From Chitinispirillum alkaliphilum (GTDB lineage: Bacteria; Fibrobacterota; Chitinivibrionia; Chitinivibrionales; Chitinispirillaceae), in assembly GCA_001045525.1 (NCBI GenBank), contig LDWW01000004.1, forward strand, positions 1-64,000: a stretch of DNA of 64,000 nt, written 5' to 3'. The translations under genes and the position numbers were made by a program. How positions within the stretch are numbered: the stretch's first letter is position 1; every line of letters starts with the position of its first letter. Positions 25,241 through 33,236 of this stretch are shown piece by piece. The notes below the pieces were generated by a model. The model searched no databases. It was not told where the DNA came from and saw only the letters and a program-made list of their open reading frames with translations.

Positions 25241-26389
25241 ATGGCTTACAAAACAAATTATATAATAAGATTTAAAAAATATCTGCTAAAAACTCTGGGA
25301 GATGACAGGTCAAAAAAGCTTCTGTCCAGATATTTTACAAATATACATAAATTGCCAGATATTTCGCTCCCCTCAGATTTGGAAAATGTAAAATCACTAC
25401 TTATCATTCTTCCACTGGACATGATGGAGCTGACCCTGCAGATGAAAAATCTGTCCATGCTTATGTCGCGTTTCGGGGATTGTAAAACAGTTTTTCTGTG
25501 CGAGGAAAACCTCGCGCCCTTTGTTTCCGGATTCCAAAACAGTGAAACTATAACATTTCAACCGGAAGAAAAAGACCTCTTCAGTCCGGAGTGGAAAAAA
25601 TTATACTCCGAGGTTTCAGATCTCTTTGATCTGTGTGTAATGCTGGAGAAAAACCCTGACCTTTCACTTCTGATGCTTGCGGCAAAAACAAATGCCCCGA
25701 TACGGGTGGGATACAAAAAAGGAAACTGCTCCCCGTTTCTGAATGTGTGCTTTAATCAGAATGAGACAGAAAAGACTATCTCTGAAAGGAACTGTTTTTT
25801 AGCCTCAACTCTTGGTGCAAAAAACAAAAAAGCAAACTGGTCCATTTCAAAGACCACCACAGAAGCATTAAAACAGGTGCTTAAAGAACATTCTCTGCCG
25901 GTGTCTTCTTCCTCATCATTGATTGGGATCGATCTGTATTTTCTGTCCCAAAATTTTGAAAAGGGCTGGGTAGAGGACCTCATTAAGGAGATTAAAAAAA
26001 TTCCGGATATCCATCTTTACTCTTTCGGTGGCATAAACAGCCAAGCCCCCTTACCATCCTGGGCGCGGGAGAGCGGTATAAAAATTCTGCCTCCGCTGTC
26101 GGTGCCCCGCACCACAGCACTTATAGCCCTGTCCAGGACCATTATTACAGGGAAAACAACACTGTTTGGGATGTGTTCATTGTTATCGGCCACAGCTATA
26201 GGTATTTTTGAAGAGGAAGAGTTGCGATTTTACTGCAAGGGGACGACATCTAAACTGAAAGGGATCGGTTATTGCAACTCACCGGACCATAGCACTATTG
26301 AGAAGATTATCTTATTTCTGAATAATCCCGTAAGCAAAAAGAAGACGTCCGGGAAGGCCGCGGCTCCAAAATTGAAAAAAAAACAATAA
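25241..26389 (+). CDS. Glycosyltransferase family 9-like protein, probably degenerate
   Basis: The 382-residue product has the layout of heptosyltransferase-type GT9 proteins: KSLLIILPLDMMELTLQM near residue 50, VSDLFDLCVML and APIRVGYKKG in the first half, and SLIGIDLYFL, IHLYSFGG and LIALSRTIITGKTTLFGM in the second. The usual strong GT9 signatures are blurred, so either a distant member or a non-catalytic relative is possible. A lysine-rich tail (KKKTSGKAAAPKLKKKQ) ends it. It has no signal peptide and would be cytoplasmic. It is read away from the GGDEF gene and in the same direction as the L,D-transpeptidase. I am not sure of the function. Confidence 0.5.
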   Translation: MAYKTNYIIRFKKYLLKTLGDDRSKKLLSRYFTNIHKLPDISLPSDLENVKSLLIILPLDMMELTLQMKNLSMLMSRFGDCKTVFLCEENLAPFVSGFQNSETITFQPEEKDLFSPEWKKLYSEVSDLFDLCVMLEKNPDLSLLMLAAKTNAPIRVGYKKGNCSPFLNVCFNQNETEKTISERNCFLASTLGAKNKKANWSISKTTTEALKQVLKEHSLPVSSSSSLIGIDLYFLSQNFEKGWVEDLIKEIKKIPDIHLYSFGGINSQAPLPSWARESGIKILPPLSVPRTTALIALSRTIITGKTTLFGMCSLLSATAIGIFEEEELRFYCKGTTSKLKGIGYCNSPDHSTIEKIILFLNNPVSKKKTSGKAAAPKLKKKQ

Positions 26390-26487: not shown

Positions 26488-27849
26488 ATGCTTGAAAAAA
26501 TAAAAACAACCATTGCTTTCAAAATAAAAGAGCTGGAATTCAGGTATAACACCTGGAAAAAAGCCCGTGATATCCGCAAGGCATATGCTCATAAAGCAAA
26601 ATTCAAACTGCCCGATTTTAAGCCATACCTCAGAAAGGCTTTATATCCGGTTTCTGTTACGATTATCGTTTTGCTTATAGGCCTGGGCTTGTGGAAGTGG
26701 GTTCCGATGATCCCCTTCGCTCAAATTCACCAATCTGTACAATCCGGCACTGAGAAGGTTTTCAGCAGTATCGGCTCACTGGCAGATGGGGCAAGGGAGT
26801 CGATCAGAAGATCAAGGGAGCGGGAAGTCAGGATTTCTCAAAACGAGCCCAATATTGCAGACGATCAAAACGTAGAGGATTACGGGGTTGTTGAGGTATA
26901 TGATAATACCGAGCTAACTGAACAAGAGAGCATAGCTGAAGAGGCCACCGCCTTTGAGAGATTCTTCTCCTCCCTTCCCCGGGAAAACATAAGTGATCAG
27001 ATTCTCTTTGCCGATAAGGAAAAACAGACTCTGTATGTAATAGAACACAACAGCGGCAACTGGGATATTGTTAGAGATTACCATATCACATCCGGAGAAG
27101 TTGAAGGTCCCAAGCAGATTGAACATGACAGAAAAACTCCCCAGGGACTCTACTTTTTAGTTGGACGCAAAGACAGAAGTGATCTCACAGAAATATACGG
27201 CCCGGTTGCATTTGTACTGAACTATCCCAACAGCGAAGACAGGGAGGCTGGCAGAACCGGAAGCGGGATATGGATTCACGGCACCGAACGTGATAACAGC
27301 CCACCGGAACCAACCAGAGGGTGTATATCACTGGCAAATCATGATGTCGCAGAACTGGGGACCATTCTAAGGATCGGATACGGAATCCCCATAGTTATAT
27401 CCTGCGGAACTGAGGAGGCCACCTTTGAAGAAGATCTGTTCAGTCAAATGGCCGAAAAAAGGGAATACCACGCGGAAAAGTACAGAACCCATTCTCAGTA
27501 TTTCGAGAATTTTGTCTTACAGTGGAGAGATGCATGGCAGTCAAAAGACATTGACCATTACACCACGTTCTATGCAACCGGGATATTCCGCAGCGGCCGC
27601 TCTGACTGGAATGCTTTCAGGAATACAAAGATACGAACATTTAATATGTACGATACGATTAAAATCAGCATTGACCATTTTATGCTCACCGAATTGTCAG
27701 AAACAGAAGCCGTAGTCAAATTTTTTCAGGATTACGAAACCAACCTCAACCGATTTCTTAACGGAAAAAGGTTGATTCTTGTAAAAGATGGAGACCGGTG
27801 GCTAATCAGCAGGGAAAGTACCTTCCCACAACAGGAGCTCTTTTTATGA
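26488..27849 (+). CDS. L,D-transpeptidase (YkuD) with transmembrane anchor and C-terminal NTF2-like domain
   Basis: This 453-residue protein probably forms or edits peptidoglycan cross-links in the periplasm. One transmembrane helix (about 53-75, VSVTIIVLLIGLGLWKW) follows a basic cytoplasmic start. The YkuD domain spans about 170-295: SDQILFADKEKQTLYVIE opens it, and the catalytic motif has His264 in WIHGT and Cys279 in TRGCISL. The S-H-G-C form common in the family is T-R-G-C here, a variant also seen in working members. Residues about 330-450 resemble an NTF2/SnoaL-like domain (FVLQWRDAWQSKDIDHYTTF, ending VKDGDRWLISRESTF) often found after YkuD domains. Its stop overlaps the start of the coiled-coil gene by 4 nt. 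Confidence 0.88.
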   Translation: MLEKIKTTIAFKIKELEFRYNTWKKARDIRKAYAHKAKFKLPDFKPYLRKALYPVSVTIIVLLIGLGLWKWVPMIPFAQIHQSVQSGTEKVFSSIGSLADGARESIRRSREREVRISQNEPNIADDQNVEDYGVVEVYDNTELTEQESIAEEATAFERFFSSLPRENISDQILFADKEKQTLYVIEHNSGNWDIVRDYHITSGEVEGPKQIEHDRKTPQGLYFLVGRKDRSDLTEIYGPVAFVLNYPNSEDREAGRTGSGIWIHGTERDNSPPEPTRGCISLANHDVAELGTILRIGYGIPIVISCGTEEATFEEDLFSQMAEKREYHAEKYRTHSQYFENFVLQWRDAWQSKDIDHYTTFYATGIFRSGRSDWNAFRNTKIRTFNMYDTIKISIDHFMLTELSETEAVVKFFQDYETNLNRFLNGKRLILVKDGDRWLISRESTFPQQELFL

Positions 27850-30455
27850 TTTTTTCAAAGAAAAAAGAGATTAAGGACCCTCAGGAGCTGGCAAACATCC
27901 TTGAGGACCATATATCTGAAATACAGGATCTTCTCAGAAGCAGCCGCAATGAGAAAGCGGATATGCACTCTATGCTTGCCTCGGTTGAAAACGAGCGTTT
28001 TCAAATCCAGAACACCCGCAATCATATGGATGAGATGAAAAGCAGCATGGAGGAGATGACTGCCCAGTATGATCTGTTGAAGGAGCGGATGGAAAATGCA
28101 CTTACACTCTCCGATAGACTTGAAAACTTCCAGAACACCGCCTCAGCTCTTGACAGCAGAATCTCCAAAATGGAAGAGGTTGTGCAGAGAATTACCGGAC
28201 AGGAAAATTACATCGAAACCGTTGGTTCCAAAATGGATACCATTCTTAGCAAATTTGACTCTGAAGAGGGAACCATTCTTAAGAAAAGCCTCGACTCGCT
28301 TGAAGCTATCGAAGAGCGCCAGAGCAAATCCTTTGAAAACATGGAAAAACTGGAAAAACAGTTTAACTCCTGGACTGAAGAGTTTACCGGAAGCAGGGAA
28401 AAACTATCTGAAGTTAATTCCGAAACCGGTGCCATTCAGGAAAAACTTCAGGAGATTGAACAAGACATGACCAAGTTCAGACTGATGAAAGAGAAAATCG
28501 ACAATCTTAACACCCTTTCCGAGTACGTCAAGACAAAGATTGCCTCTCTTGAGAAACAGCACCTGGTTGTGGAGAGAGCAAACGAGGAAGCTGGGCGCCT
28601 GAACGCTTTGACATGGAGCATAGATTCCAAACTAAAACATCTCCAGGGCAAACTCAATTCCATGGAGAAAACAGAAAAAAACATTCAGCGTATCGACTCC
28701 ATGCTCCAGCAATCCCAAAACTCAATCAATGAGATCAGAAAGTTCCACCAGTTCATGGAGCAGATGAATCATAAGATCGAGGAGATACAGGTACTGGATG
28801 AATCTTTCAACACCAAGCTCAGCCAGTTCCAGCGCCACAGCAATGAAATCACTGAAGCAAATGAAAAGATGCATGATATTCAAACCATTGCCAAGAACAC
28901 CGAAGCGATTCTCAACACGCTCAACAAACACAAACAGATGGTTGAAGACAGCAGAAGCAAGGTAATGGAGTATGAGAAAAATCTCGATAAGGTAAGTGCC
29001 AAAATCGAAGAAGTCAGCAGGGAATGGCAGGCAATTGATGCAATAGATCAGAGAATTGTAGCCTCCGAGTCCCACATAAATGAGCTTGATTCAAGACTGA
29101 ATACCATCATACAAAACAGTAAGGAAATCGAAGATTTTGAATCAAAACTCATGGACATAAGAACCCTGATTGATGATACCTGTCAGAGAGAAGAGATGGT
29201 TCACTCTCATCGTCATGAAATCGATGAAACAAACGAACGAATCGATAAGTTTTTCGCCAATGCAGAGGCTGTTGATCTGAAAATGCAGGACCTCAAGCAA
29301 CACGAAAACGAAATTGAATCTGTTACACAGATGATCGACGAGCTCAAAATCCTCTCTGACAGCGCACAGGAGAGAATTAAACAGACAGAAGAGAAATCCC
29401 ATATCATTGACGAAGTGCAGAAGAAAATCGAAAACCTTGGAATGATGGTAACAGAGGTAGACGAGAGAATCAATACCCAGCTGCAGCGGAAATCGATGGT
29501 GGAGAAAACTGAAAAAAGGCTTGACCAGTTAAACTACCTCCTTGGGGATATAAACATGAAGATCCAAAGCCTGAGCAAGGAACAGGTCAAAGTTGAGGAA
29601 GTCCTTGAACAACTCTCTGCTATTTCTGTTCAGTCACTTGAGGCCAAGAACATGATGGGCAGACTTACAGAAGAGAAACAGGCTCTGCTGCAGGAAGAGA
29701 ACCATATCCGCAGCATGCGCAAGGAGCTCCAGGAACTGGTAAGTGATTCCAACACCAGACTTAAGGAGTTTCAGGCTGAAATCACTGATATCAACGAACA
29801 GGTCGATCAGAACAAGGCTCAGTTTACAGAAATAATTAAGGCAAGTGATGGTCAGATTGTCACAATCGAAACCCATTTTGAGTCAATCAGGCAAGCTGAA
29901 AGTGAATTGAGCAATGTTGAAAAGCTGCTTGAGAATCTCAAAACAGAAATGGATCAGATCAACAGGAGAACATCAAAGCTTGAGGCAATCGATGCCCGAA
30001 TCGGAAATGTGGACACTGTTGTATCAGACATGGAGATCAGAATCGACTACATTGACAAGGGTAGAGAGCTTGTTAACGCTACCCAGAAGAAAGTCGACAG
30101 CCTTACAAACATAATCGATACTGCATCTGAACAGATCGAAACGATCAACAGTAAAGCTAAAGAGATCAAGGAAGTCGGGCACCACGTTGAAGATATCAAC
30201 AACACCATGAACAATGTGGAAAAGCGGATGAAAGATCTGGCAAAGGAAAAAAAGATCATAAAAGAGGCCGAAAACCGTATTGCAAGTCTGAACATACTCA
30301 TGGAAGATATCAAGGCTGCAATGTCAAACCTTTCATCAGAAGAACAGCGTATTCTCGCTGCGGTAGAGAAAACTTCTGAACTCCGCTTTCTGCTTGGGGA
30401 AGTGGAATCAAAACTGAATCTGTTCAGACAAGAAAAAGAACAGCTTTCAGATTGA
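27846..30455 (+). CDS. Very long coiled-coil protein, translationally coupled to the L,D-transpeptidase
   Basis: The 869-residue product begins MIFSKKKEIKDPQELANILE and is predicted by eye to be alpha-helical coiled coil almost throughout. It has no signal peptide, no transmembrane helix, no Walker motif and no globular domain, so it is not an SMC or Rad50 ATPase. Recurrent blocks of the form 'L-N-x-L-x-x-x-I-x-x-K-I-x-x-L-x-K' (for example near residues 220, 255, 570 and 820) suggest an internal repeat of about 40 residues. The ATG overlaps the transpeptidase stop (ATGA), and a terminator follows. I infer a cytoskeletal or scaffold role tied to cell-wall work. No named family was recognised. 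Confidence 0.8.
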   Translation: MIFSKKKEIKDPQELANILEDHISEIQDLLRSSRNEKADMHSMLASVENERFQIQNTRNHMDEMKSSMEEMTAQYDLLKERMENALTLSDRLENFQNTASALDSRISKMEEVVQRITGQENYIETVGSKMDTILSKFDSEEGTILKKSLDSLEAIEERQSKSFENMEKLEKQFNSWTEEFTGSREKLSEVNSETGAIQEKLQEIEQDMTKFRLMKEKIDNLNTLSEYVKTKIASLEKQHLVVERANEEAGRLNALTWSIDSKLKHLQGKLNSMEKTEKNIQRIDSMLQQSQNSINEIRKFHQFMEQMNHKIEEIQVLDESFNTKLSQFQRHSNEITEANEKMHDIQTIAKNTEAILNTLNKHKQMVEDSRSKVMEYEKNLDKVSAKIEEVSREWQAIDAIDQRIVASESHINELDSRLNTIIQNSKEIEDFESKLMDIRTLIDDTCQREEMVHSHRHEIDETNERIDKFFANAEAVDLKMQDLKQHENEIESVTQMIDELKILSDSAQERIKQTEEKSHIIDEVQKKIENLGMMVTEVDERINTQLQRKSMVEKTEKRLDQLNYLLGDINMKIQSLSKEQVKVEEVLEQLSAISVQSLEAKNMMGRLTEEKQALLQEENHIRSMRKELQELVSDSNTRLKEFQAEITDINEQVDQNKAQFTEIIKASDGQIVTIETHFESIRQAESELSNVEKLLENLKTEMDQINRRTSKLEAIDARIGNVDTVVSDMEIRIDYIDKGRELVNATQKKVDSLTNIIDTASEQIETINSKAKEIKEVGHHVEDINNTMNNVEKRMKDLAKEKKIIKEAENRIASLNILMEDIKAAMSNLSSEEQRILAAVEKTSELRFLLGEVESKLNLFRQEKEQLSD

Positions 30456-30569: not shown

Positions 30570-32777
30570 ATGGATACAACCCTGTTTTTACCATCGGCTC
30601 CAATTGAACATACCAGACAGCAATTTCTGGAGAAAATTCTGGAAGTTAACCCCAAGGTACAAACAGCTCTGATAGAAAAGGCTTTTCATTTTTCATGGGT
30701 TGCACATAAGCACCAGATTCGCAAATCCGGTGAACCCTTTATGGCTCATCCTGCAGCTGTTGCACTTATCCTTGCCGAACAACACCTCGATGAGGTCACT
30801 ATCGCAGCGGGCCTTCTCCATGATGTGCTTGAAGACACTACCATGGAGCGCAAAGATCTGGTTGAGGAGTTCGGGGAAGAGGTAACAATACTTGTGGATG
30901 GTGTGACCAAGATAAAAACCTTCCATATGAAATCCCGCCAGGAGCGCCAGGCTGAAACATACCGCAAGATGCTGCTCTCAATGGCAAAGGATCTCAGGGT
31001 CATAATAATCAAATTCGCCGACCGCCTTCACAATCTGCGCACGCTCAAATACCTTGAGCCCGACAGAATCCGGGCCATAGCAACAGAGACCCTTGACATA
31101 TATGCGCCACTGGCTCACCGCCTCGGAATGGCAAAAATCAAGTGGGAACTGGAGGATCTTGCATTCAAACACCTCTACCCCGAAGAATACAAGGATATTG
31201 TGGCGAAAGTAGTTGCCAACCGAATCGAGCGGGAAGCAATTATCGACAACTTTACATTGCCGCTTCGCACAAGGCTTGAAGAGGATAATATTACGGCTAC
31301 TATTGTGGGACGACCAAAGCATTTCTACAGCATTTACCGCAAGATGGTGCAAAGAAACAAGCCTTTGGATGAGATCTATGATCTGCTTGCTCTGAGGGTG
31401 ATAACCGATTCTGTAAGGGACTGCTATCATGTGCTTGGAATAATCCACTCACTCTGGACACCGATTCAGGATCGCTTTAAGGATTATATAAGCACCCCCA
31501 AAAGTAACGGATATCAGTCGATTCACACGACTGTTGTTGGAGAACAGGGTAACATCGTCGAGATGCAGATCCGTACTTGGGAGATGAATCTTACAGCCGA
31601 AGATGGTATTGCAGCACACTGGCTCTACAAGAGCAATAAAACAGAGATGAGCAGTGAAGACAAAGCGCTTATCTGGCTTAAGAATCTGATCGAATGGCAA
31701 AAGGATCTGACTGACTCGACGGAATTCTTTGAATTTTTCAAAATTGATCTCTTCCATGCTGAAATCTTTATTTTCACCCCAAGGGGAGATCTAATCTCTT
31801 TGCCCAAAGGAGCCACAGTTCTCGATTTTGCATTCTCTGTTCACACACAGCTTGGGATCCATTGTATAGGAGCCAAGGTGGATGGAAAAATAGAACCTAT
31901 TCACAAAAAGCTCAAAAGCGGGCAAACAGTTGAAATCCTTCACCTGAAGACCAAAACCCCCTCCATAAACTGGCTCAGAGAGGTTAAAACACCCAAGGCC
32001 AGAAGCGCCATAAGGCGTTGGCTGAAAAATACAGGCAGACAGGAAAGTATCGATCTTGGGAAGAAAATCATTCAGACCTCCTATAAGAAGCTGCACACAT
32101 CAAGCTCCTTTAAAGACCACATCCCCGGACTGCTTCAGTTTCTTGGTCTCAACAACCTGGACCGTCTTTATGAGCTTGTGGGCAATGGAGAGCTTCCAAT
32201 AAGCAGGGTAATGCAGTTTTTCCAGGTACGAAAAGTCAAAAAGTCGGCCCCCTCCACTATGGTTTCCCGGATAATGGGGACTTTCAGCAACAGGGATCAG
32301 GGTATTGTGGTAGGGGGGAATGATAACCTGATGATTCGTTTTGCCAAATGCTGCAATCCGATCCCCGGTGATCCAATCATTGGCTTTGTCACACGCGGCA
32401 GAGGTATTTCCGTTCACAGAAAAGACTGTCCCAATGTTTCCTTTTTCTCCTCAGACCAGGAAAGAAAAATTGAAGTTCAGTGGGATCAGGGCAATAAGAA
32501 AAAATACGTAGTGTCCATGGAGATAACCGGTTCAGACCGTGCAGGGCTTCTCCATGAGATAAGTGAGGTCTACTCAGAGTTTGGTGCCAATATCACAGAC
32601 GGATTCATAAATACGCTTAACCATCAGGCCAAACTCAACTTTAAAATTGAGATCAGAAATCTCAATCAGCTCAAGCAGATATTCAGAAGATTGCAAAAAA
32701 TCAAAGGAATTGAAAACGTGAGTCGTGTAAAAGATTATATTAACTATCCTCAGAAAGGCTCACAGCAGGAGGATTAA
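30570..32777 (+). CDS. rel: Bifunctional (p)ppGpp synthetase/hydrolase, Rel/SpoT family
   Basis: The 735-residue long RSH enzyme makes and degrades the alarmone (p)ppGpp. Order of domains: HD hydrolase (about 45-190) with intact metal motif LLHDVLEDT; synthetase (about 235-350) with RFKDYISTPKSNGYQSIHTT; TGS (about 395-455, IFTPRGDLISLPKGATVLDF); a conserved-cysteine region (KCCNPIPGDPIIGF); and a C-terminal ACT domain (about 660-735, SMEITGSDRAGLLHEISEV). Both active sites look functional, so this may be the cell's main RSH. It is followed at 6 nt by a DUF4388 gene and then prs, in one apparent operon. Confidence 0.96.
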   Translation: MDTTLFLPSAPIEHTRQQFLEKILEVNPKVQTALIEKAFHFSWVAHKHQIRKSGEPFMAHPAAVALILAEQHLDEVTIAAGLLHDVLEDTTMERKDLVEEFGEEVTILVDGVTKIKTFHMKSRQERQAETYRKMLLSMAKDLRVIIIKFADRLHNLRTLKYLEPDRIRAIATETLDIYAPLAHRLGMAKIKWELEDLAFKHLYPEEYKDIVAKVVANRIEREAIIDNFTLPLRTRLEEDNITATIVGRPKHFYSIYRKMVQRNKPLDEIYDLLALRVITDSVRDCYHVLGIIHSLWTPIQDRFKDYISTPKSNGYQSIHTTVVGEQGNIVEMQIRTWEMNLTAEDGIAAHWLYKSNKTEMSSEDKALIWLKNLIEWQKDLTDSTEFFEFFKIDLFHAEIFIFTPRGDLISLPKGATVLDFAFSVHTQLGIHCIGAKVDGKIEPIHKKLKSGQTVEILHLKTKTPSINWLREVKTPKARSAIRRWLKNTGRQESIDLGKKIIQTSYKKLHTSSSFKDHIPGLLQFLGLNNLDRLYELVGNGELPISRVMQFFQVRKVKKSAPSTMVSRIMGTFSNRDQGIVVGGNDNLMIRFAKCCNPIPGDPIIGFVTRGRGISVHRKDCPNVSFFSSDQERKIEVQWDQGNKKKYVVSMEITGSDRAGLLHEISEVYSEFGANITDGFINTLNHQAKLNFKIEIRNLNQLKQIFRRLQKIKGIENVSRVKDYINYPQKGSQQED

Positions 32778-32783
32778 AGAAAA

Positions 32784-33236
32784 ATGTATCTGTTTAATAC
32801 TCCAATATGGCTACTGATTAGTGGTTTTGTTTGCGGTATTATCGCTTTTATTGTTATCTACCAGCTCACGAGAAGAAAACCATCACAGCTGTACACCCCC
32901 GCCAGTACCAGCTTTGTTTTCAAAGGCAATCTTAAGCAAACCAGTTTGCTCGATGCCATGCAGTTTCTTGAGATTGGAAGACGGGAAGGTATTCTTCATG
33001 TATACTCAGGCAGAAGAAAAGGGTACCTTACTTTTCATAAAGGGAAAGCAATCGATGCCTCATACAGGGACCTCTCAGCAAGAGAAGCTGTTTTTCAGAT
33101 GCTCGATCTTGAGGAGGGGGATTTTTATTTTGAGCCAAAAGAAATAACTCAACCTAAACTTATCACCGATTCACTTATGGATCTCGCGTTCGAGTGGGAT
33201 GAGAAGAAGAATGGAGTAGATGTAAATGATAGGTAA
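32784..33236 (+). CDS. Membrane-anchored DUF4388 (PATAN) protein
   Basis: The product has 150 residues. An N-terminal membrane helix (about 5-25, IWLLISGFVCGIIAFIVIYQ) is followed by a DUF4388 domain (about 43-120): FKGNLKQTSLLDAMQFLEI, REGILHVYSGRRKGYLTFHKG and ALDLEEGDFYF-type spacing (MLDLEEGDFYFEPK). DUF4388 domains are found in signalling proteins, often with response regulators or gliding and polarity functions, but the biochemical role is not settled. A strong AGGAGG box lies at the end of rel, and the gene overlaps the start of prs by 11 nt. This links it physically to alarmone and PRPP metabolism. Confidence 0.85.
   Translation: MYLFNTPIWLLISGFVCGIIAFIVIYQLTRRKPSQLYTPASTSFVFKGNLKQTSLLDAMQFLEIGRREGILHVYSGRRKGYLTFHKGKAIDASYRDLSAREAVFQMLDLEEGDFYFEPKEITQPKLITDSLMDLAFEWDEKKNGVDVNDR

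Follow-up and report, generated by a model that had tools for sequence, protein, structure and literature searches.

Two routes to bent bacterial cells are known, the trimming of the wall by LD-carboxypeptidases and cytoskeletal scaffolds. The carboxypeptidases Csd6, Pgp2 and Bd1075 make Helicobacter, Campylobacter and Bdellovibrio helical or curved (PMC8938487, PMC8038945). In the available text of these sources, catalytic and NTF2-pocket residues of Pgp2 are required for the normal helical shape of C. jejuni (PMC8038945), while Bd1075 creates curvature in B. bacteriovorus, needs both its catalytic and its NTF2 residues for shape, and is taken to the convex face by its NTF2 domain; the mechanistic basis for the asymmetry of such enzymes is said there not to be known (PMC8938487). 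Among the scaffolds, bactofilins, some of which go with M23 peptidases, have an N-terminal peptide whose consensus over 14,337 sequences is MFSKKKK, and M1, F2, K4 and K7 of BacA matter for membrane binding according to the text available (PMC12448750); crescentin is a long cytoplasmic coiled coil proposed as a cell shaper. Here we describe a locus within 64,000 nucleotides of Chitinispirillum alkaliphilum contig LDWW01000004.1 (the window), in which the gene for a probable enzyme of the first kind (P0001) overlaps that for an 869-residue coiled-coil protein (P0002), so that the two routes appear to be joined in one translational unit.

We lean towards reading this pair as a cell-shape module, in which a membrane-bound coiled-coil scaffold positions a wall-trimming enzyme and bends the cell. 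The first gene would supply a periplasmic LD-carboxypeptidase, anchored in the inner membrane, that trims peptidoglycan stem peptides, and the second a coiled-coil protein of the cytoplasm that attaches to the inside of that membrane through its MIFSKKK N-terminus. The coiled coil would assemble via 31-residue repeats into an elongated scaffold and bind the cytoplasmic tail of the enzyme; trimming would thus be limited to one band or side of the cell, so that the cylinder bends to a spiral or vibrio, and translational coupling would hold the amounts of the two proteins matched. An initial annotation of this locus had proposed that a scaffold positions the enzyme and might set cell shape. With the corrections given below, that idea is partly supported by our sequence comparisons, and it gains support because a shape-type wall enzyme is coupled to a scaffold candidate in a genome matching a described spirillum.

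Layout and coupling of the gene pair

The first open reading frame (ORF) occupies 26488-27849 and encodes 453 residues, and the second occupies 27846-30455 and encodes 869, both on the forward strand; the frames, their lengths and the ATGA overlap at 27846-27849 are as the initial annotation gave them. Across 36 pairs the junction is a 4-base overlap in 25 and a gap of 0-18 bases in the other 11, and many relatives carry GAGGAG or AGGAG at the spot equivalent to the Shine-Dalgarno-like run seen here. The features of the pair, all on the forward strand, are as follows.

26488..27849, +: Csd6/Pgp2/Bd1075-type enzyme, P0001, 453 residues (Pfam domains, PDB relatives, structural matches)
26488..26637, +: predicted cytoplasmic N-terminal tail, residues 1-50 (helix 2-34 in the AlphaFold2 (AF2) model)
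26569..26586, +: tail motif DIRKAY, residues 28-33 (A32 nearly invariant)
26638..26694, +: hydrophobic transmembrane anchor, residues ~51-69 (AF2 helix 46-71)
26998..27378, +: YkuD-type catalytic domain, residues 171-297 (H264 at 27277, C279 at 27322)
27511..27816, +: NTF2-like Cds6_C domain, residues 342-443 (Pfam, structural matches)
27833..27837, +: AGGAG, Shine-Dalgarno-like run for the second gene, within the last codons of the first
27846..27849, +: ATGA overlap, start of the second gene and stop of the first
27846..30455, +: coiled-coil protein, P0002, 869 residues
27846..27866, +: MIFSKKK, predicted bactofilin-like membrane-targeting peptide, residues 1-7
28386..29465, +: 31-residue repeat region, first part, residues ~181-540
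29502..29573, +: most conserved block EKTEKRLDQLNYLLGDINMKIQSL, residues 553-576
29646..30290, +: 31-residue repeat region, second part, residues ~601-815
30372..30413, +: conserved C-terminal block TSELRFLLGEVESK, residues 843-856

The wall enzyme

In Pfam, P0001 carries a YkuD domain (50.6 bits against a cut-off of 23.4) followed by Cds6_C (57 bits against 27). Its PDB sequence relatives below 1e-5 are four, namely Bd1075, Pgp2 (two sequences) and Csd6, all with an NTF2 domain, and the top match is Bd1075 (7O21, 115 bits). In a structural search with the AF2 model, those four entries alone spanned both domains among the 50 matches listed (Z 16.5-17.9, root-mean-square deviation 10.6-10.8 over 241-251 residues); the domain orientation in the model differs from that in the Csd6, Pgp2 and Bd1075 structures.

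The catalytic His, Gly and Cys of the family (H264, G265 and C279) are invariant in an alignment of 32 of the 41 available sequences, as are K381, K427 and E443 of the NTF2 pocket. Counted on the PDB alignment, the Pgp2 shape residues Y233, F242, K257, K307 and E324 correspond to Y358, F367, K381, K427 and E443, where the match of K427 requires a one-residue gap shift and E443 falls past the aligned stretch. Because its fold and its catalytic and NTF2-pocket residues match those of Csd6, Pgp2 and Bd1075, we treat P0001 as a putative LD-carboxypeptidase-type shape enzyme. The initial label of L,D-transpeptidase is, by the YkuD and Cds6_C domains and the PDB relatives, probably wrong and should read Csd6/Pgp2/Bd1075-type, by family an LD-carboxypeptidase; the accompanying description as membrane-anchored agrees with the predicted hydrophobic anchor and the AF2 helix that covers it.

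P0001 resembles Bd1075, an LD-carboxypeptidase with an NTF2 domain that makes cells vibrioid (PMC8938487), but it adds a membrane anchor with a conserved, predicted cytoplasmic tail and a coupled coiled-coil gene, and the Trp of the Bd1075 C-terminal extension has no counterpart in the P0001 alignment. Furthermore, the catalytic Gly of the family is Ala in Bd1075 and is kept as G265 in P0001. With Csd6 of H. pylori and Pgp2 of C. jejuni it shares the two-domain build, the catalytic residues and those of the NTF2 pocket, whereas for these enzymes a coupled coiled-coil gene goes unmentioned in the available text of PMC8038945.

The coiled-coil protein and its 31-residue repeat

P0002 contains one Pro, one Cys and 15 Gly in its 869 residues, and its hydrophobic residues recur with a period of 3.43-3.46. 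Compared with itself, it gives peaks at lags 31, 62, 93 and 124. Lag 31 beats the other lags from 20 to 59 in 8 of 12 segments of 155 residues each, within 181-635 and 601-815, and is not the best near the N-terminus nor in segment 541-695. The earlier description of the protein as nearly all coiled coil with repeated blocks is thus borne out by its single proline, its period and its lag series. In the coil family, lag 31 is the top lag in 33 of 34 testable sequences, the exception being L102, where lag 62 leads; L107 and L108 are two entries for a single protein, and the truncated L094, L099 and L100 were left out. Lag 31 is unremarkable in SMC of the host and MukB of E. coli, ranking 46th of 140, which argues that the 31-residue repeat is no generic property of coiled coils. 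The repeat resides in the protein and not in the DNA: DNA-level and tandem-repeat searches of the gene returned only weak, short, chance-like families. A PDB sequence search with P0002 gave no match at 1e-3, and no 31-residue repeat was mentioned in the papers listed by our literature search. P0002 also matches BLOC1_2, NPV_P10, SMC, Rad50 and other Pfam and NCBIfam models, which we took for coiled-coil background; the scores for BLOC1_2 and NPV_P10 exceed their Pfam cut-offs, with no single stretch passing the threshold by itself.

The N-terminus of P0002 reads MIFSKKK, and near relatives begin MMFSSKKRE, MMFSKKKE and similar. A pattern of this type is found in 24 of 36 paired coils compared with 4 of 917 other ORFs with mechanical starts, which suggests that P0002 may bind the membrane through this peptide. 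The likeness to bactofilin systems is twofold, a scaffold together with a wall enzyme and an N-terminal peptide resembling MFSKKKK (PMC12448750, in the text available). It does not extend to membership, as the initial comparison to bactofilins might imply, since no PF04519 domain was found in the Pfam scan of P0002 and the only bactofilin match of the host is a separate gene at G000:C7; P0002 is instead predicted to be an all-helical coiled coil of 31-residue repeats, and its partner enzyme is of another family. Nor does any Pfam or NCBIfam match of P0002 point to crescentin, to which the protein had likewise been compared. It shares with crescentin the character of a long, presumably cytoplasmic coiled coil proposed as a cell shaper, and differs in its lack of a family match, in its repeat at lag 31 (9 turns of 3.44 residues each) and in its coupling to a wall enzyme. 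The host bactofilin gene (L165, G000:C7:106853-107143) lies near genes that by eye are M23 peptidase- and ParB-like, a second neighbourhood of scaffold and wall enzyme in this genome.

Against the C-terminal SpiroCoCo model (SpiroCoCo_C, NF047515), P0002 reaches 161 bits, over the cut-off of 125, only as a sum of stretches, and summed stretches exceed this cut-off in 5 of 7 members of the coil family. When single matches were searched in 167 Fibrobacterota genomes, only G006:C115 was over the cut-off, and the search also gave matches in 7 of 14 control genomes, none over it. The one SpiroCoCo fragment compared (L058) has lag 31 and a period of 3.45, as in P0002, whereas the matches listed for the host stop at model position 264 of 313. 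The likeness could reflect deep homology or a shared design, and no mention of SpiroCoCo was found in our literature search. L058 itself (G006:C115:2-742) is a SpiroCoCo_C end of 217 bits, over the cut-off, at a contig edge in a Fibrobacterota bin that is 68 percent complete; its contig is perhaps a spirochaete contig in that bin.

Co-occurrence of enzyme, tail motif and coil

We searched the 167 Fibrobacterota genomes for the enzyme at E 1e-10 and for the coil, with a profile of 16 coils, at E 1e-15. The enzyme was found in 40 and the coil in 36, and every one of the 36 coil genomes also holds the enzyme, so that the coil stands without the enzyme in 0 of 167; the enzyme stands without the coil in G027, G164, G165 and G153, the last a contig-edge fragment. 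The two genes are adjacent in 35 of the 36, and in the remaining genome (G038) the contig ends 23 bases past the enzyme and the coil opens another contig. Both genes occur in 16 of 24 genomes of the host family (f1) and in 14 of 16 from the order's remaining families (f2-f7, pooled), and among the matches listed in 5 of 6 of f11 and 1 of 1 of f13; the coil was not found in the remaining Fibrobacterota families, f8 and f9 included. The initial annotation had held that its idea would fail if the pair were not conserved even in close relatives, and these counts show conservation. A homologue with 52 percent identity is present in a Chitinispirillum metagenome-assembled genome (MAG).

The flanking genes are syntenic in many relatives and allow absences of the pair to be traced.

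25241..26389, +: upstream flank, gene for a 382-residue protein without a Pfam match over the cut-off, syntenic in many relatives
30570..32777, +: downstream flank, RelA/SpoT, synteny anchor

In G031, G002 and G003 both genes are gone together from between the retained 382-residue gene and RelA. In G015, G016, G019, G021 and G022 RelA is present and the pair is missing, and the upstream flank was not found in the fetched stretches, two of which stop at a contig end; G006 also has neither gene, its RelA lying near a contig edge in the 68 percent complete genome. On a RelA tree of 37 sequences, which carries a long-branch warning, the state of having neither gene needs 4 changes, 3 of them forced by well-supported branches. 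In these relatives, then, the pair tends to be either retained whole or lost whole.

The enzyme tail, ~50 residues ahead of the anchor, contains a motif of the form E-I-x-R-A-Y. With duplicate loci (L003-L005, L007, L009, L031 and L108) removed, it is present in all 36 paired enzymes; a script recognised it in 35, and in the other, L092, the called start is too late and the tail reads upstream to the contig edge. By contrast, 0 of 4 unpaired Fibrobacterota enzymes (one a fragment without its N-terminus, one of unsure start) and 1 of 29 loci outside the phylum have the motif, and shuffled tails match at 2.2 percent. The sole outside enzyme with the motif, L032, from a MAG labelled Nitrospirae, belongs to G167. 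A coil homologue (E 3e-87) is present in G167, on a different contig from L032, and in no other of the 29 genomes from outside the phylum. Across the genes compared, the tail motif thus tracks the coil gene.

Strain ACht6-1, very probably the host, is described as loose spirilla, and a table in the available text of the same source lists spirillum, vibrio and nonmotile rods for three taxa (PMC4814513). No genome of f9 is among the enzyme or coil matches in the 167 genomes. We take f9 to be Fibrobacteraceae, and the third taxon of that table, the nonmotile rods, is presumably Fibrobacter.

Coil homologues outside Fibrobacterota

Coil homologues are present in 46 of 77 genomes of Nitrospinota, the phylum to which G167 belongs, and the MIFSKKK-type start was not seen among them; a tail-bearing YkuD protein was found in 4 of the 77. 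Three of these four genomes have the coil and G265 lacks it; the motif fits three of the tails, the fourth being a variant, and the sole one of these proteins scanned has no Cds6_C match. When wall enzymes were sought next to the coil, most of the 18 fetched regions (L148-L164 and L141) showed a conserved housekeeping order, asd, coil, mtnP, hemL, eno, with gene names assigned by eye. For cultured members of the phylum, the available text of PMC8026999 describes helical, slightly curved and long slender rods.

In the phylum of G177, 10 of 297 genomes carry the coil. Eleven regions were fetched from 9 of these 10 (G556 excluded), and the coil was recovered by script in 9 of the 11, both of G299 being missed; the enzyme was looked for within the fetched regions. 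One genome of this phylum, G513, has a coupled pair with the tail motif, an MMFSKKRE start and an ATGA overlap in other surroundings, which transfer or a misbinned contig could explain. In 4 of the 11 regions, those covered by an M23 scan (L172, L175, L176 and L180), the coil homologue has M23 peptidase genes at a distance of 2-4 kb, hinting that the coil family may also neighbour other wall hydrolases.

A proposed shape module and its alternatives

Several observations weigh against the pair being a dedicated shape module. Most Nitrospinota with the coil lack the enzyme, and their coil gene usually sits among housekeeping genes; the coil thus has a role independent of this enzyme, and, because the shapes of cultured Nitrospinota vary, the coil alone does not go with curvature. 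The coil family is thus older than, or independent of, the pairing, which is the strongest evidence against its serving the enzyme only. In G027 (L106) the enzyme homologue has been kept alone, directly followed by RelA and without coil or tail motif, as if tail and coil had been lost together. The MIFSKKK-type pattern is missed by 12 of the 36 paired coils, namely L080, L081, L103, L104, five f11 proteins (L112 and L114-L117) and, narrowly, L094, L107 and L109, and the AF2 model of P0002 has a mean predicted local distance difference test score (pLDDT) of 60.7, too weak for a fold search. Furthermore, the tail pattern was drawn up with the sequences already in view, and the search of G167 for the coil followed later; the relatives compared are related genomes and not independent; and very few described species underlie the correlation with shape.

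Alternatively, the coil could have a general structural or organising role, for instance in the nucleoid, at the poles or at the membrane, and in Fibrobacterota happen to be co-expressed with an enzyme bending the cell alone through its NTF2 domain, with no contact between the two. The Nitrospinota coils that lack the enzyme and sit among housekeeping genes would fit this. Bd1075 reaches the convex face through its own NTF2 domain (PMC8938487, in the text available), and enzymes without the coil do occur in G027, G164 and G165. We nevertheless think this unlikely, since no Fibrobacterota genome has the coil alone, the two genes are absent jointly, the tail motif follows the coil gene, and a coupled pair recurs in other surroundings in G513. 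Much less probable still is that P0002 is a remote relative of SpiroCoCo and serves mainly some end other than shape (nucleic-acid binding, for example), its coupling reflecting growth control beside RelA/SpoT, which lies downstream of the pair in many relatives. The summed SpiroCoCo_C score and the common lag and period would fit such a protein, but the matches are partial and repeat-like, similar ones appear below the cut-off in control genomes, none of those listed for P0002 reaches the end of the model, and the bactofilin-like start points to the membrane.

We give an equally slight chance to the module acting on the envelope and not on shape, in which case the enzyme would be a true L,D-transpeptidase or an anchoring enzyme that trims or cross-links the wall, and the coil would cluster it. 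YkuD is indeed the L,D-transpeptidase domain family; however, the four PDB relatives below 1e-5 stem from three shape enzymes, all with an NTF2 domain, and P0001 retains the pocket residues that Pgp2 needs for shape.

If the pair does form a shape module, it could tentatively be regarded as an inside-out shape system, previously undescribed, in which a cytoplasmic coiled-coil filament bound to the membrane grips the tail of the LD-carboxypeptidase and so, acting across the inner membrane, fixes trimming to one helical track. The filament would probably be overwound, because the repeat is 31 residues in 9 turns. Such a system, if true, would offer one possible explanation for the asymmetry of carboxypeptidases that create curvature, and the conserved tail, as the predicted joint, makes the question of positioning directly testable. 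In literature on Csd6, Pgp2, Bd1075 or LD-carboxypeptidases with coiled coils, no such pair appeared in the titles or abstract openings of the papers listed, and the sole match for Chitinispirillum with coiled coils concerns archaea. With this locus comes a family of coiled-coil proteins whose 31-residue repeat is unusual and whose members occur in Fibrobacterota, in Nitrospinota and in a third phylum.

Other observations in the host genome

A 247-residue open frame elsewhere in the genome (L002, G000:C21:38586-39059) consists of near-perfect heptad repeats and is possibly not a gene. In the window, a 150-residue DUF4388 protein is encoded at 32784-33236, and in many relatives it lies between RelA/SpoT and a ribose-phosphate pyrophosphokinase.

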